Source: Actinomycetota bacterium (lineage in GTDB: Bacteria > Actinomycetota > Thermoleophilia > Solirubrobacterales > Solirubrobacteraceae). Taken from it: a stretch of 64,000 nt of DNA. The notes below the pieces were generated by a model. It worked only from the letters and a program-made list of their open reading frames with translations. It did not search any database and was not told the origin of the DNA. Below, piece after piece: positions 34,106 through 36,430 of this stretch (within the stretch, counting starts at the first letter, position 1; each line of letters starts with the position of its first letter). Where the stretch lies: contig JAFDWH010000021.1 of NCBI GenBank assembly GCA_018268595.1, positions 124,001-188,000 of the forward strand, written 5' to 3'. A program made the translations under genes and the position numbers.

Positions 34106-36430
34106 TCAGGCGGCGGCGTGGGCGCGCGCCGGCTCCAAGGCCACCGCGAGCACCTCGTCGACGCTCATCGCGAAGTGGAACGTCATCTGCTCGCGCACGT
34201 CAGCCGGCACGTCGTCGAGGTCGCCGCGGTTGCGCTCCGGCAGGATCACGTCGGTGAGCCCGGCGGCGTGCGCTGCCAGCACCTTCTGCTTCACCCCGCC
34301 GATCGGCAGCACGCGGCCCTGCAACGTCACCTCACCGGTCATGCCGACGGTGTGCCTCACCGGCCGCCCGCTCAACAGCGACGCCAGCGCCGTCACCATC
34401 GTGACGCCGGCGCTCGGCCCGTCCTTCGGGATCGCGCCCGCCGGCACGTGCACGTGGAACTCGCCGTCGGTCGCGCCGTCGGGGACGCCCAGCTCCTCGG
34501 CGTGGCCGCGCACGTAGGAGAGCGCGATCCGCGCCGACTCCTTCATCACGTCCCCGAGCTGGCCGGTCAGCACCAGCGCGTCCTTGCGCTCGCCCGGCAT
34601 CCGCACCGCCTCGACGAACAGCACGTCGCCGCCGGTGCCCGTCACCGCCAGGCCGGTTGCGACGCCCGGCACCGCCGTGCGGATCGCCGCCTCCTGGAAG
34701 TGCTTCTGGCGACCGAGCGCCTCGCGCACCGCGTCGAGGTCGAGCTGCACCGGAGCCGTGACGCGCCCGGACGCGATGCCGGTCGCCGCCTTGCGCAGCA
34801 GCGTCCCCAGCTCGCGCTCGAGCTGGCGCACGCCCGCCTCGCGCGTGTACTCGGTCACGACCGTCTGCAGCAGCTCGTCAGAGATCGACGCCTCCTCGGG
34901 TCTGAGCCCGTTGCGCTCCAACTGGCGCGGCCACAGGTAGCCGCGCGCGATCGCGACCTTCTCCGCCGTCGTGTAGCCGTCGAAGCGGATCACCTCCATG
35001 CGGTCCAGCAGCGGGCCGGGGATCGTCTCGGCGACGTTCGCGGTCGCGATGAACAGCACGTGCGAGAGGTCCAGCTCGACGTCGAGGTAGTGGTCGCGGA
35101 AGCTGTGGTTCTGCGCCGGGTCGAGCACCTCCAGCAGCGCCGCGCTCGGGTCGCCGCGCCAGTCGGCGCCGACCTTGTCGACCTCGTCGAGCATGATCAC
35201 CGGGTTCATCGTGCCGGCGTCGCGCAGCGCGCGGACCAAGCGGCCCGGCAGCGCGCCGATGTACGTGCGCCGGTGCCCGCGGATCTCCGCCTCGTCGCGC
35301 ACGCCGCCGAGCGACATGCGCACGAACTCGCGCCCGGTCGCGCGCGCGATCGACTCGCCGATCGAGGTCTTGCCGGTGCCGGGCGGGCCGATCAAGGTGA
35401 GGATCGCTCCCGAGGCGGTGACGTCGCGCGAAGGCGACCGGTTCCGGTCGCCGGCGCGCGAAACGTCGAGTCCGCGCTCGGCGCGCAGCTTGCGCACCGC
35501 CAGGTACTCGGCGATGCGCTCCTTGACGTCCTCGAGGCCCGCGTGGTCTCTGTCGAGCACCTCGCGCGCGTGCACCGGATCGAGCCGCTCCTGCGAGCGT
35601 CTGCTCCACGGCACGGCGATCAGCCAGTCGAGGTAGGAGCGGATCATCGACGCCTCGCCCGACTGCTCGCCCATCCGCTCGAGCCGGCCCAGCTCCTTCT
35701 CCGCCTGCTCTCTGACGGCCTCGGGCATGCCGGCCGCCTCGATCTTCGCGCGGTACTCCTCGACGACGGACGCGTCGTCCTCGCCCAGCTCCTTGCGGAT
35801 CGAGTCCATCTGTCTGCGCAGGAACCACTCGCGCTGCTGTCTCTCGGCGCCCGACTCGACGTCCTCGCGGATGCGCCGGCGCACCTGCAGCTCGGCGAGC
35901 CGCTCGCGCTGGAGCTTGACCGCGAGCGCGAGCCGCTCGGTCACGTCGAGCGTCTCCAGCAGCTCGACCTTCTGCTCGAACGAGATGTCGGGGGAGTAGC
36001 CGGCCGTGTCGGCCAACGTGCCGGGCTCGCTGATCGCGCGCACGAACGCCTGGATGCGACCGTCGTCGCCGCGCAGCTCCAGCAGCTCCTCGACGACGGC
36101 GCGGTACTCGCGCTCCAGCTCGCGCGTGCGGCCGTCGACGGGCTCGTCGTCGGGGTGGTCCTCGACCTCGACGTAGAGGCGCCCGTCCGGAGCGGTGTGG
36201 GCGGCGCCGGCGACGCCGCGGTGGAGGCCGTTCAGCACGACGGCGCGCCCGCCGCCGGGCAGGCGCACGCGGTCGCTCACGTCGGCGACGGTGCCGACGC
36301 TCGCGAAGGCGCTCTCGTGGCGGGGGACGAGCAGGACGCGCTGCTCGTCGCCGACGTCCACGGTCAGCGTCAGGTTCATCGTCGGGAACACGACGACGTC
36401 CTCGAGGGGGACCAGCAGCAGTCTGCTCAT
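34106..36430 (-). CDS. lon: ATP-dependent protease Lon (LonA)
   Basis: This 774-aa cytoplasmic AAA+ protease degrades misfolded and regulatory proteins. The N-terminal substrate domain ([14 protein letters not shown]) is followed by a coiled-coil, then the AAA+ module with Walker [10 protein letters not shown] and Walker [11 protein letters not shown]. The protease domain has catalytic Ser673 in [10 protein letters not shown] and Lys716 in [11 protein letters not shown]. Just before Walker A, where Lon normally reads RGERG followed by the P-loop strand, there is an extra stretch of about 18 residues ([18 protein letters not shown]) encoded by a 48-bp near-perfect palindrome. TATACT at 36505-36500 is a plausible promoter, giving a leader of about 60 bases. 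A bipartite HAIR site for HspR is not present. Confidence 0.96.
35420..35467. repeat. 48-bp near-perfect palindrome inserted in frame in lon
   Basis: GACGTCGCGCGAAGGCGACC plus GG (35420-35441) pairs with 35444-35467 around TT. The inner nine bases and the outer GACGT and CGCGCG parts all match; only AA/GG and a two-base bulge differ. It encodes the extra residues before the Walker A motif. Confidence 0.8.

Follow-up and report, generated by a model that had tools for sequence, protein, structure and literature searches.

The window analyzed here, a 64,000-nucleotide stretch of a Conexibacter genome, carries a lon gene at 34106–36430 on the reverse strand, an open reading frame encoding a protein of 774 amino acids with the Pfam domains LON_substr_bdg (residues 4–172), AAA (345–482), Lon_lid (505–556), and Lon_C (565–766). 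Inside this gene, an imperfect palindrome of 50 nt (35418–35467, reverse strand) supplies 17 codons, corresponding to Lon residues 322–338, in the linker directly N-terminal of the AAA/Walker A segment, the AAA domain starting at residue 345. The palindromic part itself, 35420–35467, had been placed just before the Walker A segment by a sequence-only reading, and that placement was borne out; the repeat family described below adds two bases, extending the element to 35418. The element strand was predicted to fold at −23.9 kcal/mol as DNA (z = −5.15) and with z = −5.49 as RNA, and none of 200 shuffled sequences folded as well in either case. A covariance model of the repeat family (R1) scored the lon copy at 75.6 bits (E = 1.9e-19 in the window), compared with at most 23 bits for the window background, and near-copies in the same genome were recovered by BLAST with E-values down to 3e-16; the palindrome is thus far beyond what chance would produce.

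Alignment with related Lon proteins showed that the extra residues are missing from four of the five congeneric full-length proteins, three of which carry the empty linker I-R-E-D-K-R-S and the fourth I-E-V-D-K-R-S. Rather than being shared by all Lon homologs of the class, the insertion is absent from ∼60 orthologs with short linkers, in which the segment from R-G to GAILTL comprises 7 residues, versus 20 here. The net gain is therefore 13 residues, fewer than the ∼18 previously estimated. Because the length of the element and the net gain are unequal, some of the original linker bases were lost, and the insertion was not a clean addition.

The element belongs to a dispersed repeat family with the consensus, oriented as in Lon, GRYGTTTCGCSCTCCGG-(variable stem)-CRAG-(stem)-CCTKCGSGCGACGTYAC. 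The covariance model, built from ten copies, contains 18 pairs; in an alignment of 65 distinct copies, which was fitted to the model and is hence biased towards it, pairing was retained in 90.3% of cells, changes on both sides occurred at 12 of the 18 pairs, and the covariation score was 0.329, against 0.128 for shuffled alignments and ≤0.063 when the alignment was slid. Information content falls from 1.7–2.0 bits to ∼0.2 at the right border and from 1.1–1.3 bits to 0.3 at the left, and this sharp drop on both sides implies a discrete unit whose ends coincide with the palindrome edges. The border profile revealed no evident target duplication beside the element, and no Rfam family matched it. 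In the Conexibacter genome, the end motif GTRACGTCGNSCG was counted 36 times and its reversed control four times; many of the 36 matches fall outside complete elements and may be halves of decayed ones.

Searching the genome with the lon segment and the covariance model placed the 50-mer among ∼33 distinct sites at E < 1e-5, some of them in tandem. Across the host family, copies were found in at least 43 of 121 genomes and at least 17 of 25 genera, with at least 32 copies in one genome (G005) and at least 16 in another (G027); presence is patchy between congeners, and copies number only in the tens per genome. In a sample of 396 genomes from the phylum, matches were obtained in four genomes of the family, and elsewhere in only two genomes, with one weak match each. 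The window contains further copies, all on the forward strand. The second (942–991; 65.5 bits, E = 1.7e-16) lies in frame in a leucyl-tRNA-synthetase-like gene, whose open frame runs through the copy with an Anticodon_1 domain immediately downstream, and it has a tandem partner at 900–939 (model positions 5–44; 32.5 bits, E = 5.8e-7); together, the two tandem elements at 900–991 account for ∼30 extra residues. This element-bearing gene is only ∼40% like the synthetase of the congeners, a second type that the genome also encodes. The third copy, at 18559–18608 (49.6 bits, E = 6.5e-12), is intergenic and lies upstream of a tRNA-Gln gene (18643–18716).

Using a classifier of codon usage, for which 88 genes of the host family served as the training set, 22 of 108 copies (∼20%) were called as lying within genes, 13 in one orientation and nine in the other, and in several reading frames; a conserved coding peptide was ruled out by this use of several frames and both strands. 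Same-genus orthologs without the element were found for RecD2-like, CheA, MurE, phosphoglycerate-mutase-like, flippase-like, and PhaC-like genes, which together with Lon make seven genes, and in other genomes elements interrupt HisF, a Ser/Thr kinase, an Lhr-like helicase, an RNase R-like protein, and a second linker of Lon (gene names without Pfam support are our reading of the sequences). Pfam domains span the insert in MurE, HisF, CheA, and a phosphatase. Apart from the classifier count, a gene for a flippase-like membrane protein (L133, 1501–1638) contains three head-to-tail, in-frame copies of a 45-bp unit.

The reading that we favor, with a probability of about 0.85, is that the lon palindrome represents an intragenic member of a REP-like group of non-autonomous palindromic elements, ∼50 bp long and specific to a single family of the Solirubrobacterales. 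The in-frame insertion of a palindromic element, already proposed for this site, is supported as the best reading by the dispersed copies, the borders at the palindrome edges, and the empty orthologs. The proposal that the element is mobile fits the dispersal as well; movement itself, however, we infer from that dispersal, since no recent polymorphic insertion was seen among the genomes compared, and no transposase was found. The added Lon peptide is probably a tolerated passenger loop rather than a gained function.

Of 70 Lon genes, 10 contain an element in the linker ahead of the AAA domain, and these are distributed over six genera (g1, g8, g12, g13, g16, and g19). In nine of the ten, the elements share one orientation, and most follow R-G-[MLI] at almost the same codon, while the inner stems differ among carriers; two Lon genes (G007 and G051) contain two tandem elements each, the pair in G051 being reversed. 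Another Lon linker, ahead of the protease domain (L165 and L180), is also affected: G079 has a reversed element there, and G119 an insert derived from the element. This distribution could have arisen by a single ancestral entry into Lon, or by recombination of lon between genera, followed mostly by loss and involving no repeated insertion. Such a history would account for the shared orientation and near-identical codon, for the 94% likeness of the Lon copies of the Conexibacter genome (G000) and G015 despite their different genera, and for the slightly greater likeness between the copies of g12 and G081 than among most others. Nevertheless, a Lon tree computed without the linker requires nine gains or losses of the element, at least seven of them on strongly supported branches, and one of the reversed copies in the G051 Lon gene is most similar (96%) to a non-Lon copy of another genus. 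Judged from the tree and alignments, repeated insertion into Lon is the simpler reading, because losses would need to recreate the common short linker many times; we consider a single entry, or spread by recombination, somewhat improbable, although a serious contender.

Outside genes, 68 of 85 copies have a gene 3′ end facing the GTRACGTC end of the element, and in 58 of these 68 cases the stop codon lies within −12 to +1 of the GTRAC end; in 31 of the 68, the stop codon is formed by bases 2–4 of the element (TGA, TAA, or TAG). At the opposite end of the element, a gene end was found in 29 of 84 cases, at scattered distances. When eight genes of the Conexibacter genome were compared with those of congeners, the stop was unchanged in three, two codons earlier in two, and two codons later in three. 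Insertion exactly into native stop codons was rejected on this basis, the orthologous end being kept in only three of the eight. The element thus usually inserts near a stop codon and brings a new one with it; selection on an element-supplied stop explains the gene-end register better than does a stop-codon target. The stop codon of atpG (L157, L289, and L173) is occupied by an element in G000, G018, and G022, and thus represents another recurrent site.

At gene ends, the preferred orientation and the register with the stop codon are strong enough, and the RNA hairpin stable enough, that the element might instead be mainly a functional 3′-end signal at stop codons, acting as an mRNA 3′ hairpin, terminator, or stabilizer, with the Lon copy a stray; the repeated occupation of the atpG stop would also suit such a role. 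Against this, a signal of this kind would have to be reconciled with patchy occurrence between congeners and only tens of copies per genome, as well as with the lack of an Rfam match, and the displacement of the stop by zero or two codons relative to orthologs in the eight genes marks an insertion rather than a conserved signal. We therefore think a primarily signaling role unlikely. An ordinary low-complexity Lon linker that is palindromic by accident can be dismissed: although linkers differ in length within the family and a clear palindrome is missing from several of the expanded ones (G103, G052, and G019), it is refuted by the near-identical 50-mers that recur across unrelated genes of this genome and whose borders match and arms covary. 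Expanded linkers of this sort also occur in G011, G016, G008, and genus g20, and these, such as LDVPSDGPEG (G016) and LDVTATDD (G008), may be decayed elements, as may that of G103.

Under the reading of the family as a non-autonomous palindromic element, some enzyme would act on the folded single strand and integrate copies at further sites, and insertions would persist where the protein stays intact, with selection removing those that break genes. Two routes to survival can be envisaged: insertion at a stop codon would be tolerated since the element carries its own TGA, TAA, or TAG, and insertion in frame would be tolerated within flexible linkers, such as that before the Lon ATPase core. Searches for the Y1/RAYT transposase domain (PF01797) yielded no match in the Conexibacter genome or in G005, G028, G031, G010, G018, and G081; G027 was the sole element-rich genome with a match, and the domain is present in many genomes where the element is scarce or absent. 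A more specific scheme, in which targeted, Y1-independent insertion favors stop codons and one codon of the Lon linker, with at least three to seven separate Lon events across the family, is conceivable, but we hold it doubtful.

The best-known cases of short palindromic repeats entering proteins come from Rickettsia and from some REP-bearing bacteria. Rickettsia palindromic elements (RPEs) are ∼150 bp long, encode a conserved peptide, lie within genes in nearly half of cases, and are present in frame in many proteins of Rickettsia (PMC10969869). Compared by description, the present element resembles them as a dispersed palindromic repeat found in frame in unrelated protein genes, but differs in its length of 50 bp, its use of several frames and both orientations, its lower proportion in genes (∼20%), and its occurrence in another phylum. 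Among REPs, both GTAG- and CGTC-tagged classes adjoin gene 3′ ends, the GTAG class supplying stops, and entry into genes is described, including by Rickettsia RPE-4 and RPE-6; GTAG REPs have an unpaired GTAG tag at one end and associated RAYT (Y1) transposases, whereas in CGTC REPs an unpaired tag is combined with an 8–9 bp stem beginning with A-T pairs and a CCA-fitting tail, and a dedicated transposase is lacking (PMC3733652). The text of that paper mentions no Actinobacteria (PMC3733652). With GTAG REPs, the present family shares a short hairpin with a tag at one end, its own stop codon, some copies in genes, and a mostly extragenic position near gene 3′ ends, as seen in the 58 of 68 stops that fall close to the GTRAC end. 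It differs from them in ending with GTGAC or GTAAC (GTAGC was found in three copies, whose TAG is the stop) and in its longer, two-step stem, and membership in a REP/RAYT system was rejected given the absence of PF01797 from the Conexibacter genome and most other element-rich genomes. With CGTC REPs, it shares a CGTC near one end, the lack of a dedicated transposase, and some copies in genes, but in the 18-pair model this CGTC is paired inside the outer helix, the tail is AC, and the stem is longer and of a different make-up.

No report of this element family from the Thermoleophilia was found in the open-licence literature searched. A Thermoleophilia family that carries its own stop codon, recurs in Lon, and resides mostly in genomes in which no Y1 transposase is detectable offers a tractable system for studying how hairpins spread without a transposase of their own and how proteins gain new loops, and it cautions that extra linkers in protein alignments may be mobile DNA. 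In its behavior the family works like a REP or an RPE, but it fits the definition of neither the GTAG nor the CGTC REPs, nor that of the RPEs.
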